The notes under the pieces were generated by a model. It was given only the letters and a program-made list of their open reading frames with translations, had not been told where the DNA came from and made no database searches. Source: Deltaproteobacteria bacterium (lineage in GTDB: Bacteria; Desulfobacterota; Syntrophobacteria; Syntrophobacterales; Syntrophobacteraceae). Taken from it: a DNA stretch of 64,000 bases. Position 1 is the first letter of the stretch. The number at the start of each line of letters is the position of its first letter. A program made the position numbers and the translations under genes. The stretch is from the NCBI GenBank assembly GCA_012517315.1, contig JAAYVE010000002.1, positions 1 to 64,000 on the forward strand. Direction: 5' to 3'. Positions 1 to 10,906 of the stretch are shown here, piece by piece.

Positions 1-3000
1 CCCGAGGAGCCGGGGGCTCAGGTTCGCCCCATGGAGTCCGGCGTGTTCCTGTTTTGCAGCCAATGCCTGAGGGTGTCCGAACGGCTGGATCGGGAACAGT
101 GCCCCTTCTGCGGCGGGGAGGAGCTGATCAGGGTTTTCCTATCCAACCAGCGCACGACGCACCGGGGAAGGCCCATCGCACGCCATGACTGCCCTTACTG
201 TGATGCACCGAGCGGCCTCACCATCATGGGTTCCCAGGCGGCAAGCCTCACCAGCGTCATGCTGGCCCAGCTGTACTCCTCGAGCTTCAATGACGACAAG
301 AAGCTCCTCACTTTCTCGGATTCGGTCCAGGACGCGGCCCATCGGGCGGGATTTTTCGCCGCCCGGACCTACCGGTTCAACCTGAGGAGCGCCATCCAGC
401 AATGCGTCCAGAACGGGGCATCCGGGATCTCCCTTGCCGAGCTTCCCGAAGTCTTCATCCGGCACTGGTCGGAGCGGCTGGACGAAAAGGCCTACATCGC
501 CACATTCCTCCCGCCCAACATGAGCTGGTTCCAGGACTACGACCATCTGATGCAGCATGGAACGCTCCCCGAGGGGTCGGGGCTCAGGGCGGATGTGGAC
601 CGGAGGATCGGGTGGGAGATCGTGAGCGAGTATGGCTTCCAGGCCCGCATAGGGCGGACCCTCGAAAAATCCGGCTCCTCCATCGGGCGCGTGGACGGCG
701 AGGTCTTGGGGAACACTGCGGAGAGGCTGCTCGAGGTATTGCAGAACGAGATGGGGGAGCTCAGGGCTCTGGATCTCAATACCCTCCGGCGCTTCCTGCT
801 GGGGCTCCTGGTGCACCTCAAGAACGAAGGGGCCGTCTTCCACCCGGCACTGGACGGCTTCATCGAGGATTTCGGGAACCCCTATCTCATCAACCGGATC
901 CACTGGATGCCCAATTACGGGCAGTCGAGCCGAACACCGGCGTTTCTCACCACGAAGAGCGGGACGCGGTTTGATGTTCTGATCAGCGGGGGTGCGGGCC
1001 GCAGGACCTGGTACCAGGCCTGGGCGGAGAAGTGCTTGTTTCCCGTCCACCCCATGATCCGATCGCTCACGGACCGGCTCTATGGCTTCGTGCTGAAGGT
1101 CCTTGTCCAGGGGGGCGTCCTCGAGGAGCGGAAGGTCAGGAACGACCGGATCTGGGGGATCCGGCCCGAATCGATCCGGGTCGGCCATGAAGTCGGCCAG
1201 TTCCGCTGTGACAAGTGCGGCCATGGCGCTTCGGGGGCATCTCAGGACGCCGGGCTCTGGGAAGGGATGCTCTGCCTTCGGTTTGGCTGCTCCGGGAAGT
1301 ATTTCCGGGAAGATGGCGGCCTCGACTACTACGGCCGGCTCTACTCAACGGGGGACATCCAGCGGATCTTTGCAGAGGAACATACGGGGCTATTGACAAG
1401 GGAATCGCGGGAGGAGCTGGAGCGGCGGTTCAAGGCCGCAGCGGACGACCGCAGACCATGGGACCCGAACCTCCTCTCCTGCACCCCCACCCTCGAGATG
1501 GGCATCGACATCGGCGATCTGTCGACGGTGGTCCTGTGCTCCGTGCCGCCCGCCCAGGCCAATTACCTCCAGAGGATCGGACGTGCCGGAAGGCGGGATG
1601 GCAATGCGCTCAACCTGACCGTGGCCAACGCCCGCCCCCATGACCTTTATTTCTTCGCCAACCCCATGGAGATGCTTGCAGTGAGAGTCGAGCCTCCGGG
1701 GGTCTTCCTCAATGCATCCGCGGTGCTGGAACGGCAGTTCACGGCCTTCTGCTTCGACCGATGGGTGGAGTCGGGCATTTCCGAGACGGCCCTTCCCCAC
1801 AAGCTGGGGCACGTCCTGAACAGCCTTGAGCCGGCCGAGAGGAGCAAGTTCCCCCACAACCTCCTTCACTTCATCGAAACCCATCGTACGGAGCTGCTGG
1901 ACCGTTTCATCGCGCTCTTCGAGGGCTCTCTCACCCAGGATTCCGTAGACCGGCTGCTTCAGTTCATCCGTGAAGAAGAGGGCGGGCAGGAGAGCCTCCG
2001 GTACCGGATTGTGCAGGACCTCCACCGGCTGAAGAAGGAGAGGACTTCGCTCCAGAACAAGGTGAAGCTTCTCAGGGAGAGAATCCGAAAAAAGGAGGCG
2101 GACCCGGCCAAGGGGAAGAATTATCAGGAGGAACTGGATGAACTGAGACGGGAAAAGAGTGCCCTCCAGAAGCTGGTGAGCCTCATCAACGGCCGGGATA
2201 CGCTCAACTTTTTTACGGACGAGGGACTCATCCCCAACTACGCCTTCCCGGAAGCCGGGGTCCAGCTGCGGTCCATCATCTACCGGAAGAAGCAGACGAG
2301 GCAGGAGGGTGAAGGGGGTTACAACACCTGGGTCTATGAATACGAGCGTCCCGCAGCCAGCGCCATCGTGGAACTGGCGCCGGCGAGCCACTTCTACGCC
2401 GGGAGGCGCAAGGTCCGCGTGGACCAGGTGGACATGAGTGTCTCCGAGGTCGAGACCTGGCGCCTGTGCAACAACTGCTCCCATTCCGAGCTCATCGGGA
2501 CGGCCCCCGAGAAGAGCGCCTGCCCCCAGTGCGGGAGCCTGCTCTGGAGCGACGAGGGGCAGAAGAGGCGCATGGTCCGACTGAGGCAGGTCTTTGCCAG
2601 CACTTCGGACCGGGAGAGCCGGATCGGCGATGACCATGACGAGAGGGAGCCGAGCTTCTATGAAAAGCAGCTCCTCCTGGACTACAACCCCAAGCATGTG
2701 ACGGATGCCTACCGGCTGGAAAGCGATGAGGTCGCCTTCGGGTTCGAGTTCCTGTCCAAGGCCACCTTCCGGGAGATCAACTTCGGGGAAAAGGGGGAGT
2801 TCGGGGAGAAATTGACTGTTGCCGGGGTGGAGCTCCCCAGGAAGGGGTTTTCGCTCTGCCGCCATTGCGGGAAGGTCCAGGATAAGAGCGGAAAGGTCAA
2901 CCACGCCCTGACCTGTACTTCCCGGAGCCAGGCAGCCCCGCAGAACTTCATCGACTGCGTCTACTTGTACCGGGATTTCACCTCCGAGGCCATCCGCATC

Positions 3001-4758
3001 CTCCTTCCGGTCACGACCTTTGCCGGGTCCGAACGGAAACACCATTCCTTCCTGGCGGCCCTTCAGCTGGGCCTCAGGTGCAAATTCGAGGGGAACGTGG
3101 ACCATCTGAGGGTGACGGACCATGAGGAACCGGTGCCCGAGACGGCCTACCGGAAGAAGTACCTCGTGGTCTTCGACACCGTGCCGGGCGGGACGGGGTA
3201 CTTGAAGCAGTTGATGCGGTCGGACAAGCCCATGATGGAGGTTTTTCAGCTGGCGCTGGATGCCCTCAAGGCTTGCCCCTGCAACGAGGATCCCGAGAAG
3301 GATGGTTGCTATCAGTGCCTGTTCGCCTACAAGAACAGCTTCAGAATGAACGAAATCTCGCGGGATACGGCCATCGAGCTTCTCTCTTCGATCCTCCGGG
3401 AAAAGGATCACCTGGTCAAGACGGATACCCTCAAGAATGTGAAGGTCAACGTGCTGTTCGACAGCGAGCTCGAGGCCCGGTTCATCGAGGCGCTGAGGAG
3501 GGCTCGAAGCCCTGAATTGGACGTTGCCCTGACCAAGGAGGTGGTGAAGGGGAAACCCGGCTATTTCCTCAGAATCGGAAAGCGGTCCTACAGGATCGAG
3601 CCCCAGGTGAAGCTGAGTGAAAAGGAGGGGGTAGTCGTTCCAAGTACCTGCGACTTTGTCTTCTGGCCGGCTCGAAGCCAGCACGAACTGAAGCCCGTGG
3701 CCGTCTTCGCGGATGGGTTCCTCTACCACAGGGACCGCGTGGGGCTCGACCTGGCGCAGCGCATGGCCATCGTGAAGTCCGGGCGGTTCCTGGTCTGGTC
3801 CCTCACCTGGAAGGATGTCGAGCATCAATTCCATGGCCAGGGAAATTACTTTGAGGACCACCTGGATCCGGGGAAGCTGCCGGGGGGGAAGCTCCTGCAC
3901 CAATTTTTGGAGGGTTATGGCTTGCAGGATTTCAAGGGGGCCATGAAAGAGGGGAGCTTCCCCTGGCTCGTCCGCTACCTCTCAAACCCTGATGAGGGAG
4001 TCTGGCGGCGATTGGCCCTTGCCATTACGCTTTGCCTGATCGATGCGAAAGGGTACTCCAGTGAAGAAGCGGTGAAATCCTGGGTGGAACGGTTGGATGA
4101 GAAATCGACGCCAGGAATTCGCCGGGTCCTGAAGGAAAAGCTTGCGGACTCATTACTGGGGCACTACGAGGCCGGGGGAGATGAGTCGGTCCCTGCCGCT
4201 CATTATTTTGCCGCCGTGGAGAAGGGGTCCGTTTCTGAATCGAAACCGGAAGGAATGCGGCTGCTCTGCTGTTTCTCGGACGGGAAGGAGGAGAGACTCC
4301 TGCCCGGTTTCGAGGCGGCCTGGACGGGGATGCTCCGAGCCTACAACCTCATGCAGTTCATCCCCAGATCATTCTTCGTGAGCACCGAAGGTCTGAAGAG
4401 TCCCCACTATGATGAGCTGGCAGTCCCGGAGGAGCCGGCCGGAGGTGAGAAGGTTGAGCCGGCTGCGTCATCCGAATGGGAACAGCTCAAGGAGCTCGTG
4501 GACCCAAGCTTCCACGGGCTGTTGGACCTCCTGGCGGCGAACGGATGTCCTATTCCGGAGCCGGGTTACGAGCTGATGTCAGGGACGTCAGGGATCGTGG
4601 GTACTGCTGAGCTTGCATGGGAGGATAAGTGGATCGCCGCCTTGCGTGAGGATGAAATGGCCTTCCAACCGGTGTTCGAAGGCATGGGCTGGAGGGTCTT
4701 CGCGCTGGTGGAGATCGGCACCCAACCGGATGAATTCTGTAGCGCACTGAAAGGGTAG
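1..4758 (+). CDS. Large DUF1998-type DEAD/DEAH-box helicase with nuclease-like C-terminal segment (5' end outside window)
   Basis: The reading frame is open from base 1, so the ATG at 31 is probably not the real start and the N-terminal ATP-binding half lies outside the window. What remains begins with Cys-pair zinc ribbons. A helicase C-terminal domain follows, with LLTFSDSVQDAA (about 301-336), PTLEMGIDIGD (about 1486-1518) and QRIGRAGRR (1570-1596). A coiled-coil stretch lies near 2000-2200 and a further Cys-rich part after it. DUF1998 hallmarks are FDTVPGGTGYLKQ (3172-3210) and a Cys cluster CPCNEDPEKDGCYQC (3274-3318). The part after about 3460 has a spacing like PD-(D/E)XK nucleases: Glu in SELEARF, Asp at 3652, then VAVFADGFLYHRD (3697-3735). 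Known relatives with helicase plus DUF1998 are MrfA/YprA, DISARM DrmA/DrmB and Druantia DruE; the size fits DruE-like giants best. It is followed 14 bases later by a second helicase, suggesting one operon. Helicase identity is sure; the defence role is inferred. Confidence 0.85.
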   Translation, partial: PEEPGAQVRPMESGVFLFCSQCLRVSERLDREQCPFCGGEELIRVFLSNQRTTHRGRPIARHDCPYCDAPSGLTIMGSQAASLTSVMLAQLYSSSFNDDKKLLTFSDSVQDAAHRAGFFAARTYRFNLRSAIQQCVQNGASGISLAELPEVFIRHWSERLDEKAYIATFLPPNMSWFQDYDHLMQHGTLPEGSGLRADVDRRIGWEIVSEYGFQARIGRTLEKSGSSIGRVDGEVLGNTAERLLEVLQNEMGELRALDLNTLRRFLLGLLVHLKNEGAVFHPALDGFIEDFGNPYLINRIHWMPNYGQSSRTPAFLTTKSGTRFDVLISGGAGRRTWYQAWAEKCLFPVHPMIRSLTDRLYGFVLKVLVQGGVLEERKVRNDRIWGIRPESIRVGHEVGQFRCDKCGHGASGASQDAGLWEGMLCLRFGCSGKYFREDGGLDYYGRLYSTGDIQRIFAEEHTGLLTRESREELERRFKAAADDRRPWDPNLLSCTPTLEMGIDIGDLSTVVLCSVPPAQANYLQRIGRAGRRDGNALNLTVANARPHDLYFFANPMEMLAVRVEPPGVFLNASAVLERQFTAFCFDRWVESGISETALPHKLGHVLNSLEPAERSKFPHNLLHFIETHRTELLDRFIALFEGSLTQDSVDRLLQFIREEEGGQESLRYRIVQDLHRLKKERTSLQNKVKLLRERIRKKEADPAKGKNYQEELDELRREKSALQKLVSLINGRDTLNFFTDEGLIPNYAFPEAGVQLRSIIYRKKQTRQEGEGGYNTWVYEYERPAASAIVELAPASHFYAGRRKVRVDQVDMSVSEVETWRLCNNCSHSELIGTAPEKSACPQCGSLLWSDEGQKRRMVRLRQVFASTSDRESRIGDDHDEREPSFYEKQLLLDYNPKHVTDAYRLESDEVAFGFEFLSKATFREINFGEKGEFGEKLTVAGVELPRKGFSLCRHCGKVQDKSGKVNHALTCTSRSQAAPQNFIDCVYLYRDFTSEAIRILLPVTTFAGSERKHHSFLAALQLGLRCKFEGNVDHLRVTDHEEPVPETAYRKKYLVVFDTVPGGTGYLKQLMRSDKPMMEVFQLALDALKACPCNEDPEKDGCYQCLFAYKNSFRMNEISRDTAIELLSSILREKDHLVKTDTLKNVKVNVLFDSELEARFIEALRRARSPELDVALTKEVVKGKPGYFLRIGKRSYRIEPQVKLSEKEGVVVPSTCDFVFWPARSQHELKPVAVFADGFLYHRDRVGLDLAQRMAIVKSGRFLVWSLTWKDVEHQFHGQGNYFEDHLDPGKLPGGKLLHQFLEGYGLQDFKGAMKEGSFPWLVRYLSNPDEGVWRRLALAITLCLIDAKGYSSEEAVKSWVERLDEKSTPGIRRVLKEKLADSLLGHYEAGGDESVPAAHYFAAVEKGSVSESKPEGMRLLCCFSDGKEERLLPGFEAAWTGMLRAYNLMQFIPRSFFVSTEGLKSPHYDELAVPEEPAGGEKVEPAASSEWEQLKELVDPSFHGLLDLLAANGCPIPEPGYELMSGTSGIVGTAELAWEDKWIAALREDEMAFQPVFEGMGWRVFALVEIGTQPDEFCSALKG

Positions 4759-4772
4759 AGGGAGCTTGAGAC

Positions 4773-6944
4773 ATGGTTCATGGGAGTCTGCCCGTCAAGC
4801 TGGCCATATCGGATGATTTTCTGTTCTCGTTTTCGAGGATCCCAAGGAATCAGCAGACGAAGGTCCTGGAGTTCGTGAACAAGTTCCGGAGCGATCCAAC
4901 TCTTCCAGGCATCAACTATGAGAAGATCCAGGGTGCCAGGGACCCCAACCTGAGGTCGGTGAGGATTGACCGGGCGTACCGCGGCGTCGTGCTGCGGCCC
5001 GAGAAGGGGAACATTTACGTGTTGCTCTGGGTGGATCACCACGACAAGGCTTACTCCTGGGCCACGAACAAGGTCTGCGGTATCAACCCGGAGACGGGCA
5101 GCGTCCAGATCGTCGATGTGACCAGCGTGCCCGTGGAGCCCGGGAAGGAGACTCTTGCCGGAGATGGGTCTCGGAAGGGGCTCTTTGACGGGGTTCATGA
5201 CCGGCATCTCGTCCGGATGGGGATCCCGGAGATTCAGCTCCCTTTGGTGCGAAGCATCCAGACGGAGGAGGAACTGGACCGGGCAGCCGTAGTCCTCCCC
5301 CAGGAGGGTGCTGAAGCCCTCTACATGCTGGCCAGCGGGTATTCCGTCGAGGACGGGTTCAGGGAGCTTGAGATCACCGGAGAGCCCGAAACGGTCGACA
5401 CCAGCGACTTCAGCAAGGCCTTGGACGCCCCGGATTCCCGGCGCCGGTTCTTTGTCGTGGAGGACGACCTCGAGCTTTCGGCCATTCTGGAGGCACCCCT
5501 TGAGAAATGGCGCGTCTTTCTCCACCCTTCCCAGAGAAAGCTGGTCGAGCGGGATTGGAATGGCCCGGTGCGTGTTCTCGGTGGGGCCGGCACCGGGAAG
5601 ACCGTGGCTGCGATGCACCGAGCCCGATGGCTGGCTCTGAACCGATTCACGGGCAGGAACGATCGGATCCTCTTCACCACCTTCACCCGGAACCTGGCCG
5701 CCGACATCCGGGAGAACCTGACCAAGATCTGCCCCCAGGAGGCCATGGCTCGAATCGAAGTGGTGAACCTCGACAAATGGGTTTCGGACTTCCTCAAGCG
5801 GAATGGCTACAGCTACGACATCGACTACGGTCCGCGTATCATGCCGCTTTGGGAGACAGCCCTTTCCCTTGCGCCCTCGGAGTTGGGGCTGGATGCCACC
5901 TTCTACAGGGAAGAGTGGGAAAGGGTGGTTCAACCAGCGGCCGCCACCTCCATGAACGAATACATCAAGGCCCCCCGGGTGGGTCGTGGGGTTCGCATGA
6001 ACCGCAAGGACCGGCTGGCCGTGTGGCCGGTTTTTGAGGAATACCGTGCCCTGCTCAATGAAAATGGGCTCAGGGAAGCCATCGACGCCATGAGGGACGC
6101 CCGGCTGCTGCTGGAGAGCAAGGGCGACATCCTGGCCTATAAGGCGGTGATCGTCGACGAAGCCCAGGACATGGGGGCCGAGGCCTTCCGGTTGATCCGC
6201 CAGATGATTCCCGGAGGGGACAGAAAGAACGACCTTTTCATCGTCGGCGACGCCCACCAGAGGATTTACAGGCACAAAGTGGTTCTCAATCAGTGTGGGG
6301 TGAATGTCCGCGGGCGAAGCCGTAAACTCCGGATCAACTACCGCACCACGGAGGAAAACCGGCGCTGGGCCGTGAATCTGCTGGAGGGCTTGAGCATCGA
6401 TGACCTGGATGGAGGAATGGATGACCAGAAAGGGTACCAGTCCCTTCTGCACGGTGTCGCCCCTCAGGTGCAAATCTTCCCCACCTTCAACGATGAGGTC
6501 CGTTACGTTACCGCCTATCTCAATGATTTGGAAGGCCAGGGCCAGCCTTTGAACGGCGTATGCCTTGTGGCTCGGACTAATGAACTCCTCAAGCAATACG
6601 AGGCAAATCTCAGGGAGCAGGGCATATCGACCTGTTTCATCCAGCGGAGCGAAGCCGAGGACCGAAGGGCCCCCGGCGTACGTTTGGCCACGATGCACCG
6701 TGTAAAAGGGCTCGAATTCGACCGGGTCATCATCGCAGGCGTCAATGAAGGCGTCGTTCCTTATGAAAAAGGGGCCGACCGCCCATCGGATCCTGTGCTC
6801 AGAAAAGAGTCCGAGGTGCATGAGAGGGCCCTCCTTTATGTCGCGGCGACCCGAGCGAAGAGGGAGGTCCTGGTGACGACGTCGGGGGTGCCCAGCAGAT
6901 TCATCGCGGCACGTGGGCCCACATCGGATGGGCAGTTCCGATGA
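4773..6944 (+). CDS. UvrD/Rep-family superfamily 1 helicase with RelE/ParE-like N-terminal domain
   Basis: This is a 723-residue protein. Residues 1-95 are rich in short strands and basic residues and resemble a RelE/ParE toxin fold (start VKLAISDDF, then RSVRIDRAYRGVVLRP and VLLWVDHHDKAY). A linker follows, then a complete SF1A helicase: Walker A GGAGTGKT near residue 270, Walker B VIVDEAQDMG near 460, RKLRINYRTTEENR near 515, ATMHRVKGLEFDRVIIAG near 640 and LLYVAATRAKREV near 695. It is shorter than housekeeping UvrD or PcrA, has no obvious extra nuclease domain, and carries the toxin-like domain they lack. It starts 14 bases after the giant helicase, with AGGGAG as a plausible ribosome site, so the two are probably co-expressed. 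The helicase call is sure. The RelE-like domain rests on pattern only, and it may serve nucleic-acid binding rather than mRNA cleavage. Confidence 0.88.
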   Translation: MVHGSLPVKLAISDDFLFSFSRIPRNQQTKVLEFVNKFRSDPTLPGINYEKIQGARDPNLRSVRIDRAYRGVVLRPEKGNIYVLLWVDHHDKAYSWATNKVCGINPETGSVQIVDVTSVPVEPGKETLAGDGSRKGLFDGVHDRHLVRMGIPEIQLPLVRSIQTEEELDRAAVVLPQEGAEALYMLASGYSVEDGFRELEITGEPETVDTSDFSKALDAPDSRRRFFVVEDDLELSAILEAPLEKWRVFLHPSQRKLVERDWNGPVRVLGGAGTGKTVAAMHRARWLALNRFTGRNDRILFTTFTRNLAADIRENLTKICPQEAMARIEVVNLDKWVSDFLKRNGYSYDIDYGPRIMPLWETALSLAPSELGLDATFYREEWERVVQPAAATSMNEYIKAPRVGRGVRMNRKDRLAVWPVFEEYRALLNENGLREAIDAMRDARLLLESKGDILAYKAVIVDEAQDMGAEAFRLIRQMIPGGDRKNDLFIVGDAHQRIYRHKVVLNQCGVNVRGRSRKLRINYRTTEENRRWAVNLLEGLSIDDLDGGMDDQKGYQSLLHGVAPQVQIFPTFNDEVRYVTAYLNDLEGQGQPLNGVCLVARTNELLKQYEANLREQGISTCFIQRSEAEDRRAPGVRLATMHRVKGLEFDRVIIAGVNEGVVPYEKGADRPSDPVLRKESEVHERALLYVAATRAKREVLVTTSGVPSRFIAARGPTSDGQFR

Positions 6945-7362: not shown

Positions 7363-7439
7363 TGGCGCGCCTGGAGAGATTCGAACTCCCGGCCCACGGA
7401 TTAGAAGTCCGTTGCTCTATCCGACTGAGCTACAGGCGC
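7363..7439 (-). tRNA. tRNA-Arg (anticodon TCT)
   Basis: Read on the minus strand the sequence folds as a full cloverleaf. The acceptor GCGCCTG pairs with CAGGCGC, the D arm holds AGCTCAG, and the anticodon stem ACGGA/TCCGT carries loop CTTCTAA (anticodon TCT). The T arm is GGGAG-TTCGAAT-CTCTC, followed by discriminator G and an encoded CCA. Its 3' end points toward the helicase pair and transposase remnant, the side where integrating elements normally insert. Confidence 0.96.
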
Positions 7440-7893: not shown

Positions 7894-8064
7894 GTGACTC
7901 AGAAGACGCGCTGGGTTTGTCTGGCGGCGGGTGTGGTCATTCTGGTGGTAGGCCTCGTGAAGCTCTTTCGAGATGGGGACGGGATTCCAGCCATTCTCGG
8001 CCTCCTCATCGTTGCTTTTTCGGCTTCGGGCATCCTCAAGGAGAAGGGCGGGAAAAAACCTTGA
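7894..8064 (+). CDS. Small two-helix membrane protein, unknown function
   Basis: This encodes 56 residues from a GTG start preceded at good distance by a strong ribosome site, AAAGGAGGTGG (7876-7886). The protein has a short basic N-terminus, a hydrophobic segment (about residues 8-24, VCLAAGVVILVVGLVKL), a charged turn RDGDGIP, a second hydrophobic segment (ILGLLIVAFSASGIL) and a basic tail KEKGGKKP. This is the layout of a small inner-membrane hairpin protein. I do not recognise the family and no function can be given. It lies about 100 bases before lysS on the same strand. The ribosome site and clean topology make it likely to be real despite its size. Confidence 0.6.
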   Translation: MTQKTRWVCLAAGVVILVVGLVKLFRDGDGIPAILGLLIVAFSASGILKEKGGKKP

Positions 8065-8075
8065 AGCGAATGCCC

Positions 8076-8104
8076 TTGACGTGCCGTGACAAATCATCTA
8101 ACTT
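8076..8104 (+). promoter_or_regulatory. Possible sigma-70 promoter ahead of lysS
   Basis: TTGACG at 8076-8081, a 17-base spacer and TAACTT at 8099-8104 lie about 60 bases before the lysS start. The -35 box is good and the -10 box is weak. The position is sensible for the first gene of the envelope block. Confidence 0.35.
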
Positions 8105-8166
8105 CCATCCACTTGACGGGGCGGCGAATAGTCTGACAATGCGGATTCATTGAGGATTTTCGGAAT

Positions 8167-9657
8167 ATGGATGATCTGAACGCCGTCATGCGGGAGCGCA
8201 TGGAAAAGGCTCAGGAACTGGAACGGGAGGGGATTCCCATCTTCCCCAACGGCTATCCTGTTGCCCATCACATCATTGACCTGCTAGACCGCTTTGGCTC
8301 GGCCACAGGGGAAGAACTGGAGGCCCATGAGGAGTCCTTCACCATCGGGGGGAGGATTGTTTCCATCCGGTCCTTCGGAAAATCCATTTTCATGCACCTC
8401 CTGGACTCGGAGAGCAGAATCCAGATCTACGTGCAGAAGAACCACATCCAGGAAGCGGATTACCGGCTGGTCAAGAAACTGGACGTGGGGGACATTGTCC
8501 GGGTGACGGGCCGCCTTTTCCGCACCCGCACCAACGAACTGACTCTCCTCGTGACGGATCTGGTGCTCCTCACCAAAAACCTTCGCCCTCTTCCCGAGAA
8601 GTACCACGGCCTCAAGGATATCGAAACGCGCTATCGCCAGCGCTATGTGGATCTCATCGTGCACGAGTCGGTGCGTGAGACGTTCCGCAAGCGGGCCAGG
8701 ATCGTGCAGGCCGTCAGGGATTTCCTCACTTCAAAGGGGTTCCTCGAGGTGGAGACCCCCATGATGCAGCCCATTCCTGGAGGAGCCACCGCAAAGCCTT
8801 TCAAGACGTTTCACAACGCCCTCGGTATGGAACTCTATCTCAGGATCGCCCCGGAACTCTACCTCAAGCGCCTGCTGGTGGGCGGTTTCGACCGGGTGTT
8901 TGAACTCAACCGGAATTTTCGAAACGAAGGCGTTTCCACGCAGCACAACCCTGAGTTCACCATGCTGGAGTTCTACCAGGCCTTCGCCACATACGAAGAT
9001 CTCATGAGCGTCACGGAGGAGCTTTTCGCCCATCTTTGCCGCTCCGTCAACGGGGGGGAGTTCGAGCTGGATTACCAGGGGCATCGGATTCAGCTGGCTG
9101 GTCCATGGCAGCGGTTGCGTTTCCTGGAATCGCTGGAGTGCATCGGAAACGTCCCGAGGGAGGCCATCCAGGATCCGTCGCGCTGCGCCGAGTACGCCAG
9201 GGGACTGGGGCTCGCCGCGGAGCGCTTCGAAGGGCATGGCAAGCTCCTCACCAAGATCTTTGACCTGACCGTGGAACCCAAGCTCATTCAACCCACGTTC
9301 GTCAGCCATTACCCGTTGGAGGTTTCGCCCCTGTCCCGCAGAAACGACGAGGATCCATCCCTTGTGGACCGCTTCGAGTTGTTCATCGCGGGAAAGGAGA
9401 TCGCCAACGCGTTTTCAGAGTTGAATGATCCAAGGGATCAGCGGGAGCGTTTCTTGCGCCAACTGGAAGCCCGCCGGGAAGGGGACGAGGAAGCGCATGA
9501 GATGGACGAGGATTACATTCGAGCCCTGGAGTACGGACTGCCACCCGCTGCAGGAGAGGGGATCGGCATCGACCGCGTGGTGATGCTTTTTACCGACTCG
9601 CCCTCCATAAGGGATGTCATCTTGTTTCCCCACCTGAGACCTGAGAAGAAGATCTGA
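8167..9657 (+). CDS. lysS: Lysyl-tRNA synthetase, class II
   Basis: This enzyme charges tRNA-Lys with lysine using ATP in the cytoplasm. The 496-residue length is normal for bacterial LysS. An N-terminal OB-fold anticodon-binding domain (about residues 55-150, beginning FTIGGRIVSIRSFGKS) is followed by the class II catalytic core. Motif 1 is around GFLEVETPMMQ, motif 2 is FRNEGVSTQHNPEFTMLE, and motif 3 is GEGIGIDRVVMLF near the C-terminus. It is directly followed by the lolC/E gene 7 bases downstream. This lysS-lolCDE linkage is frequent in Gram-negative bacteria and supports co-transcription. Confidence 0.97.
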   Translation: MDDLNAVMRERMEKAQELEREGIPIFPNGYPVAHHIIDLLDRFGSATGEELEAHEESFTIGGRIVSIRSFGKSIFMHLLDSESRIQIYVQKNHIQEADYRLVKKLDVGDIVRVTGRLFRTRTNELTLLVTDLVLLTKNLRPLPEKYHGLKDIETRYRQRYVDLIVHESVRETFRKRARIVQAVRDFLTSKGFLEVETPMMQPIPGGATAKPFKTFHNALGMELYLRIAPELYLKRLLVGGFDRVFELNRNFRNEGVSTQHNPEFTMLEFYQAFATYEDLMSVTEELFAHLCRSVNGGEFELDYQGHRIQLAGPWQRLRFLESLECIGNVPREAIQDPSRCAEYARGLGLAAERFEGHGKLLTKIFDLTVEPKLIQPTFVSHYPLEVSPLSRRNDEDPSLVDRFELFIAGKEIANAFSELNDPRDQRERFLRQLEARREGDEEAHEMDEDYIRALEYGLPPAAGEGIGIDRVVMLFTDSPSIRDVILFPHLRPEKKI

Positions 9658-9664
9658 AGGTTAT

Positions 9665-10906
9665 ATGAACTTCGAGGTTTTTGTCAGCCTGCGCTATCTG
9701 TTTGCAAAGCGCCGCCAGACGTTCATTTCTCTCATCACCCTCATTTCCATCGCCGGCGTTGCCGTGGGGGTCATGGCCCTCATTGTCGTCCTGGGCGTCA
9801 TGAACGGATTCCAGGACGATGTGCGCAACCGCATCCTGGGGATCACCTCCCACATCATGGTGATGAGCTTCAACGGAACCATTTCCAACTACCGGGATGT
9901 CATGTCCCAGATTGAAGAACGGCCTGGAGTTGTGGCTTCCACGCCCTTTGTCCATACGCAGGTGATGGTGAGTTCCGGCCGGAGTGTTTCCGGTGCTGTG
10001 GTCCGGGGGATCGATCTCTCCACGGCCCTTAAGGTCATCAACCTGCAGAAGACCATGGAACGGGGAAACGTGGAAGATCTGGGGAGATCGGTGGAGGGGG
10101 ACTCGCCCGATTTGCAGCCGGGGATCATCCTGGGCAGGCAACTGGCGAATCACCTCAATATCCGGCAGGGGGACTGGATCACCCTCATCTCACCGGCGGG
10201 CCGTCTCACCCCAATGGGCCAGGTGCCCAGAAGCAAGCTCTTCCAGGTCGTGGGGATCTTTGAGTCGGGGATGTACGAATACGACAATACCCTCGCCTAC
10301 ATAAACCTTCCGTTGGCGCAGCAGTTCCTGGGGATCGGCGACGTGGTGCTGGGGATCGAGGTGAAGGTGTCCAACATTTACAAGGCGCGGGATGTTGCCG
10401 ACGACCTGCAGACTGCCCTGGGCAGCCCCTACTGGGTGCGGGACTGGATGCAGATGAACCAGGCCCTTTTTTCAGCCCTCAAGCTGGAAAAGGTGGTCAT
10501 GTTCATCATTCTCACCCTCATCATCCTGGTGGCCGCTTTCAACATCGTCAGTTCCCTCATCATGCTCGTCATGGAGAAGACACGGGACATCGCCATCATG
10601 AAAGCCATGGGGGCGACGACCGCCAGCGTTCGGAAAATTTTCATGGTGGAAGGGTTGATGATCGGCATTTCGGGCACGTTCCTCGGGATCGTCGGGGGGT
10701 TTGTCCTGTGTGCCCTGCTCAAGAAATACAAATTCATCGAACTTCCAGAGGTTGTCTACGGCATCAAGACGCTTCCCGTAAACGTGGAAACAATGGATGT
10801 GGCCCTCATTGCCCTGGCCGCGGTGCTCCTGAGCCTCGTCGCCACCCTGTATCCTTCGCGCCAGGCTGCTAAACTGGACCCGGCGGAGGCCCTGCGCTAT
10901 GAATAA
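9665..10906 (+). CDS. lolC: Lipoprotein-releasing ABC transporter permease LolC/LolE
   Basis: This is the inner-membrane subunit of the Lol system, which extracts outer-membrane lipoproteins and hands them to the LolA chaperone. The 413 residues have the FtsX/MacB layout. One N-terminal transmembrane helix (about residues 22-45, ending VLGVMNGF) precedes a large periplasmic domain, and three C-terminal helices come after about residue 270 (VVMFIILTLIILVAAFNIVSSLIML onward). MEKTRDIAIMKAMGAT is the typical coupling segment and [17 protein letters not shown] the typical tail. Only one permease gene is present, so it may work as a homodimer, as in bacteria with a single LolF-type subunit. Its last 8 bases overlap lolD. 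Confidence 0.94.
   Translation: MNFEVFVSLRYLFAKRRQTFISLITLISIAGVAVGVMALIVVLGVMNGFQDDVRNRILGITSHIMVMSFNGTISNYRDVMSQIEERPGVVASTPFVHTQVMVSSGRSVSGAVVRGIDLSTALKVINLQKTMERGNVEDLGRSVEGDSPDLQPGIILGRQLANHLNIRQGDWITLISPAGRLTPMGQVPRSKLFQVVGIFESGMYEYDNTLAYINLPLAQQFLGIGDVVLGIEVKVSNIYKARDVADDLQTALGSPYWVRDWMQMNQALFSALKLEKVVMFIILTLIILVAAFNIVSSLIMLVMEKTRDIAIMKAMGATTASVRKIFMVEGLMIGISGTFLGIVGGFVLCALLKKYKFIELPEVVYGIKTLPVNVETMDVALIALAAVLLSLVATLYPSRQAAKLDPAEALRYE

Follow-up and report, generated by a model that had tools for sequence, protein, structure and literature searches.

What are the two large helicase genes that lie side by side at the very edge of a contig in a deltaproteobacterial genome, close to a tRNA gene, and do they form a defence system of their own kind? 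The window analysed here is the first 64 kb (64,000 nucleotides) of contig C49 (JAAYVE010000002.1), one of the 61 contigs of a 4.43 Mb assembly rated 99.4% complete. An earlier note on this DNA, made from the sequence alone, had described a giant DUF1998 helicase, cut at its 5' end and followed 14 bases later by a UvrD-type helicase with a toxin-like N-terminus, and had proposed that the pair might be an undescribed module acting against phages or mobile elements. Open reading frames and Pfam matches confirm the two genes and their arrangement. The first frame runs open from 1 to 4758 and encodes 1,585 amino acids; its 5' part is missing, since the window starts at base 1 of the contig. It closes with a TAG stop codon, and exactly 14 bases separate this codon from the ATG at 4773 of the second frame (4773-6944), which encodes 723 amino acids. 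The features to which we refer, under the gene names that are justified below, are as follows.

1-4758, + strand: armC, YprA/DUF1998-family SF2 helicase-nuclease, 5' truncated (open frame, Pfam, identity, tree)
1375-1596, + strand: RecA2/Helicase_C region of ArmC (PF00271, residues 459-532; motif VI QRIGRAGR at residue 524)
3055-3321, + strand: MZB/DUF1998 zinc-binding domain of ArmC (PF09369, residues 1019-1107, 45.6 bits)
3445-3840, + strand: Vsr-like PD-(D/E)xK nuclease domain of ArmC, predicted to be active (conserved residues, weak fold matches)
4456-4731, + strand: C-terminal tail of ArmC, ~90 residues, with a putative mini endonuclease-like fold (hhalign against ZorE tails, fold match to 3hrl)
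4773-6944, + strand: armD, RelE-like domain joined to a UvrD/GajB-like SF1 helicase (Pfam, 50-51% identity)
4794-5087, + strand: putative RelE-like N-terminal domain of ArmD (alignment, secondary structure, individually weak PDB profile matches)
5508-6902, + strand: UvrD-type SF1 helicase core of ArmD (Pfam, Foldseek, motifs)
7363-7439, - strand: tRNA-Arg(TCT), with the operon on its 3' side and lysS on the other side

Both the Helicase_C and the MZB/DUF1998 domains of ArmC exceed the curated Pfam cut-offs, and the protein reads in order as motif VI (QRIGRAGR), several CxxC pairs with the MZB domain, and then a putative nuclease domain. The Walker motifs and the BrxA-like domain expected of such a protein fall in the N-terminal part that lies beyond the contig end. 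In an alignment of 24 homologues, the SELE, DF, DG, H, D and R positions of the putative Vsr domain are conserved. Structural comparison of the C-terminal part of ArmC by VIA-align gave only weak matches to PD-(D/E)xK folds, with Z up to 6.5; region 49-228 of the AF2 model aligned with BsoBI (Z 5.8), BstEII and TnsA, likewise with weak Z scores, and Foldseek returned no match under E 0.001 for the C-terminal part. The conserved residues and this faint likeness to PD-(D/E)xK enzymes are consistent with the predicted active Vsr nuclease of the ArmC described in a preprint (see below).

The helicase assignment of ArmD is straightforward. The protein matches the Pfam families UvrD-helicase and UvrD_C, its fold matches UvrD/PcrA in Foldseek (E 6e-22), and its helicase motifs are intact, with Walker A (GGAGTGKT) at residue 270 and Walker B (VIVDEAQD) at residue 459. 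Its first ~105 residues are predicted to follow the order beta-alpha-alpha-beta-beta-beta-beta-alpha, which is that of RelE toxins. The best matches of an N-terminal profile among 177,635 PDB sequences were YoeB (twice) and RelE3, each weak at E 0.04-0.1, and a nearly invariant motif, VDHHDxAYxWA (also given as VDHHDKAYxWA), runs through a 29-sequence alignment of the domain. The toxin-like N-terminus noted earlier is thus tentatively retained as RelE-like, on matches that are individually weak (E 0.04 for the best).

The pairing itself corresponds to a system that has recently been named. ARMADA Type II is an anti-phage defence system tested against phages in E. coli, with the strict gene order armA-armB-armC-armD (Bell et al. 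2025, PMC12458937). In that description armA encodes a BrxHII/RapA-like helicase, armB a PglX-like methyltransferase, armC a YprA-like helicase with a C-terminal Vsr nuclease predicted to be active, and armD a GajB-like UvrD helicase fused to a RelE-like domain (PMC12458937). A protein search of plasmids recovered contiguous armA-armB-armC-armD genes of the right kinds and lengths on an E. coli plasmid (L053) and a Pseudanabaena plasmid (L054). The ArmC of the window is 38-39% identical to the ArmC proteins of these two plasmids over ~1,580 amino acids, and its ArmD is 50-51% identical to theirs. Closer to the window, four genomes of its own family (G007, G008, G011 and G015) contain armA, armB, armC and armD, all present and in that order. 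In a maximum-likelihood tree the window ArmC falls inside a clade of 16 ArmC sequences (support 99/99), apart from the three DruE sequences of Druantia type (99/98); the gene for one of these lies beside the ARMADA operon of the E. coli plasmid. The DUF1998 helicase is related to Druantia DruE as a member of the YprA family, though in a separate clade.

Since gene pair, order, fusion and domain content all fit the published definition, the two genes are almost certainly armC and armD, which make up the 3' half of an ARMADA Type II operon for anti-phage defence that this genome acquired at the 3' end of tRNA-Arg. They are a partial copy of a known system, and no new system is present. The idea of a defence module at a variable locus thus survives, whereas the statements that the pair was not a named system and was undescribed do not, the pairing having been described, with anti-phage activity, as ArmC-ArmD of ARMADA Type II (PMC12458937). 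The comparison with defence-system models that had been suggested, made here with PADLOC 2.0.0, returned only distant DruE and GajB matches; that library dates from 2023 and is older than the ARMADA name, so that a scan with it would miss the system. The finding accordingly places in a described defence system an operon that the 2023 library labels as distant DruE/GajB only. A defence role of the window pair is supported by homology with the tested E. coli system.

The genomic surroundings are those of an island. The tRNA-Arg gene is indeed a neighbour, as the earlier note had stated; the transposase relic also reported there was not recovered, the ORFs between armD and the tRNA matching no Pfam transposase family. 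Beyond the tRNA lie genes that their translations identify as lysS, lolC, lolD and BamA-like; LysS and LolC also have matches in relatives. Of 10 relatives examined, 8 have the tRNA-Arg(TCT) gene upstream of lysS. The homology shared with G001, a genome of the same genus, extends about 24 bases outside the tRNA 3' end; the sequence that follows differs from one relative to the next: G001 has a Cas3 gene there, G006 has signalling genes, and still other genes occur elsewhere. The G001 gene encodes a Cas3 HD helicase (L106, 1-1467, - strand) and lies on the armCD side, ~1.3 kb from the 3' end of tRNA-Arg. Because tRNA and lysS are conserved but the flank beyond them is variable, the armCD locus is regarded as an island rather than as part of the core genome, and it resembles the tRNA-linked elements described for E. 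coli ARMADA (PMC12458937). A search of the window's own genome for an attachment repeat matched the tRNA 3' end, within 3 mismatches, only to the tRNA itself; the other end of the element may lie off the contigs. At a larger scale, the adjacent armC-armD pair recurs in Desulfobacterota, Pseudomonadota, Cyanobacteriota, Bacillota and Bacteroidota, which is more than chance. Related pairs are carried on plasmids and on contigs of a viral collection, and some copies stand beside Druantia or Zorya genes.

Two other identities for the pair deserve to be weighed. A housekeeping DNA-repair pair of the MrfA/YprA and UvrD kind might be expected from the fact that both protein families have repair members and that the operon adjoins lysS, lolC and lolD. 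ArmD-type proteins, however, occur in only 11 of 60 genomes, the window's own included; the pair is missing from most relatives, among them the same-genus G001, although tRNA-Arg and lysS are syntenic there. The window's genome also encodes a separate MZB helicase of ~1,033 amino acids on contig C51, and the same pair is found on plasmids and viral contigs. The syntenic core position that a housekeeping role would imply is therefore not what was observed, and this reading is very improbable. Equally improbable is a new Druantia variant, which is what the best PADLOC match of ArmC, DruE1 at E 9e-58, would suggest. That match is partial, covering positions 1037-1690 of a profile of 1776; the tree parts ArmC from DruE, and the neighbouring gene is ArmD rather than DruH. 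Moreover, a separate DruE-type protein adjoins ARMADA in the E. coli plasmid and in loci L011 and L022.

A further alternative concerns the state of the copy and is a sub-case of the preferred reading, the family being the same and the copy incomplete: the window may hold a remnant that has lost armA, armB and the 5' part of armC by deletion, leaving a decaying pair or a helicase pair that works alone. In its favour, queries for ArmA, ArmB and the ArmC N-terminus taken from relatives gave weak helicase-like matches or none elsewhere in an assembly estimated to be 99.4% complete, although the same ArmB search is positive in 7 of 60 relatives. Decayed copies do exist, such as L025, where a transposase fragment is flanked by what is left of armC, namely its first ~82 and its last ~60 codons, and L026 and L174 carry armD alone. 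Against deletion, the armC frame reaches contig base 1 with no stop or frameshift and neither gene contains an in-frame stop; contig breaks at variable islands are common, and a deleted operon would normally join other sequence rather than end with a contig. A remnant is accordingly rather unlikely. An intact operon interrupted by an assembly gap seems more likely than gene loss, given that the armC frame continues without interruption up to base 1 of the contig. In alignment, residue 18 of the window ArmC pairs with residues 555 and 547 of the E. coli and Pseudanabaena proteins, which puts the missing N-terminal part at roughly 515-540 residues and the full length at an estimated ~2,100 amino acids for this YprA/DUF1998 helicase; the missing stretch would measure several kb, or about 9 kb in an operon built like those of the relatives.

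The ARMADA II operons of Desulfobacterota relatives also vary in cargo. The genes before armC (at the armB-armC junction where armB is visible) differ from genome to genome and include an AbiL pair, a helix-turn-helix/PIN-like pair, a RelE/ParE-like toxin-antitoxin pair, and PDC-M38 and HEC-01-like ATPases (L055, 9316-11552; L015, 597-3587; L016, 2572-3134; L039, 1529-3555; L011, 1293-3190). Locus L013 carries cargo at 162-1649 and at 8010-9892, some of it between armC and armD as well. In G061 (L161, 1-16001; L022, 1-12109) the ARMADA II operon encloses, between armB and armC, a Druantia III-like pair made up of a DruH-like protein and DruE, and Zorya II lies divergently upstream of armA. A second subfamily of RelE-UvrD proteins, ~30-35% identical to ArmD, occurs after Type III restriction-modification-like genes or before a DUF4011 protein (L185, 2022-10082; L037, 3960-12058; L188, 8028-15784); these other partners indicate that the RelE-UvrD fusion is used by several systems.

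As to how the complete system would work, all four genes are required for defence in E. coli ARMADA II, Walker mutations in ArmA, ArmC and ArmD and mutation of the ArmB methyltransferase motif matter, infected cells survive, and the anti-phage activity is direct and non-abortive (PMC12458937). By homology with that system, a complete copy of the operon found here would need ArmA (a Snf2/RapA-type translocase), ArmB (a PglX-like DNA methyltransferase), ArmC and ArmD, and would stop the phage without killing the host. We infer that ArmC would load on single-stranded phage DNA intermediates, translocate along them and cut by means of its Vsr domain, and that ArmD would be recruited beside ArmC and translocate on the same DNA, with its RelE-like part serving either as an RNase or for binding. 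Target or self discrimination would be the task of ArmA and ArmB.

The part of the finding that we consider worth following is the end of ArmC. The PADLOC model for ZorE matches the last ~80 residues of the window ArmC (E 1.5e-9), and profile-profile comparison of ArmC tails with ZorE tails by hhalign gave 99.6% probability and E 6.3e-25. An HMM of the ArmC tail matches the ZorE proteins of Zorya II from E. coli, Vibrio albus and a Planctomycetales bin; it also matches a large sacsin/NOV_C protein of V. albus, in which the tail starts past the end of the PADLOC TmtA model and is therefore an appendage. Tails are likewise borne by a NERD-UvrD helicase between armB and the nested Druantia III of an Oceanospirillales genome, and by a UvrD-type helicase in G309. 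Besides that of the window (4456-4731), tail loci include L116 (2836-3075, - strand), L020 (3934-4185 and 9533-9766), L151 (8461-13326), L161 (7682-10189, - strand) and L153 (6219-9401, - strand). As judged by these profiles, ArmC ends in ~90 residues that are homologous to the C-terminal extension of ZorE and to the tails of other defence proteins. The best fold match of the tail is 3hrl, at a Z of 6.5 that is under the tool's threshold for a clear match; a comparison with PDB sequences gave no match, and a tree of the tails, which are too short, yielded no well-supported grouping. Inactivated nuclease domains are mentioned at the end of ArmC (PMC12458937), and 90% of Druantia-associated ZorE leaves have been reported to carry a C-terminal nuclease-like region that was not confidently assigned (preprint on Druantia III-Zorya II synergy); no description of a link between the ArmC tail and the ZorE extension was found in the literature searched.

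Among 369 genomes of the class of V. albus, 10 carry the tail and 8 a canonical ArmD. Each of these 8 armD genes follows directly on a tailed ORF, which encodes ArmC in 6 cases and a sacsin/NOV protein in 2. Over all loci collected, a tailed ORF stands directly upstream in 44 of 48 ArmD entries (one genome counted twice); of the remaining four, L013 and L057 have ArmC separated from armD by additional sequence, and the other two stand alone. By the same test none of 13 loci of the second RelE-UvrD subfamily has a tailed ORF directly upstream, L184, with an upstream YprA helicase of weak tail score (E 8.7e-5), falling just outside the test. The association of tail and armD is mostly that of ArmC beside ArmD, and its independent part consists of the two sacsin/NOV loci. 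In locus L025 (362-6864) a DDE transposase fragment splits the remains of armC, which lie with Zorya II genes on one side and a complete armD on the other; its reading as a Zorya-ArmD pair without ArmC was rejected on account of that decayed and split armC, and the locus was dropped as evidence.

It is possible, and we offer the idea tentatively, that the tail is a module for docking or targeting that can be borne by different proteins. It would be an inactivated mini endonuclease fold through which various effectors (ArmC, ZorE of Zorya II, sacsin/NOV-type ATPases and NERD-UvrD helicases) connect to a common machinery, which would most likely be ArmD or the DNA intermediate on which ArmD works. 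The tail may thus bring effectors of several kinds to ArmD or onto one and the same DNA. If so, it would provide a physical basis for the arrays of Zorya II, Druantia III and ARMADA II and would account for the C-terminal extension of ZorE. Cooperation between these systems becomes directly testable, since the ZorE extension is homologous to the ArmC tail and since armD is immediately preceded by a gene for a tailed protein even where, as in two loci, armC is absent.

Among known systems, ARMADA II is the one that the locus matches, sharing with it an ArmC (YprA helicase, Vsr nuclease and inactivated nuclease-like domain) directly before ArmD, in the same gene order and with 38-51% identity to copies inside complete armABCD operons. 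It differs in that the window's assembly shows only a 5'-truncated armC and armD, in belonging, as it appears, to the Desulfobacterota, a phylum absent from the main text of PMC12458937, and in the extra cargo genes that Desulfobacterota relatives carry between armB and armC. Druantia III has in DruE a related YprA-type helicase-nuclease, but ArmC belongs to another clade and has another C-terminal nuclease; Druantia III has no ArmD-like partner, whereas in the window no DruH is adjacent and, on the downstream side, which is the side that could be read, the next gene is armD. DISARM (DrmA/DrmB) also employs a YprA-type helicase with DUF1998, but there the helicase and DUF1998 parts are separate genes, accompanied by a PLD nuclease. 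The window pair has no such separate drmA and drmB genes: the helicase C-terminal domain and DUF1998/MZB are joined in one polypeptide with a Vsr domain, and the partner is a UvrD-type helicase. The GajB protein of Gabija is a UvrD-type helicase of the same broad group as ArmD; no GajA accompanies the pair, however, and ArmD has its RelE-like N-terminus. ZorE of Zorya II, finally, shares with ArmC the homologous C-terminal ~90 residues (hhalign 99.6%), while the remainder of that protein, a DUF8245 region and an HNH nickase, is unrelated to ArmC.
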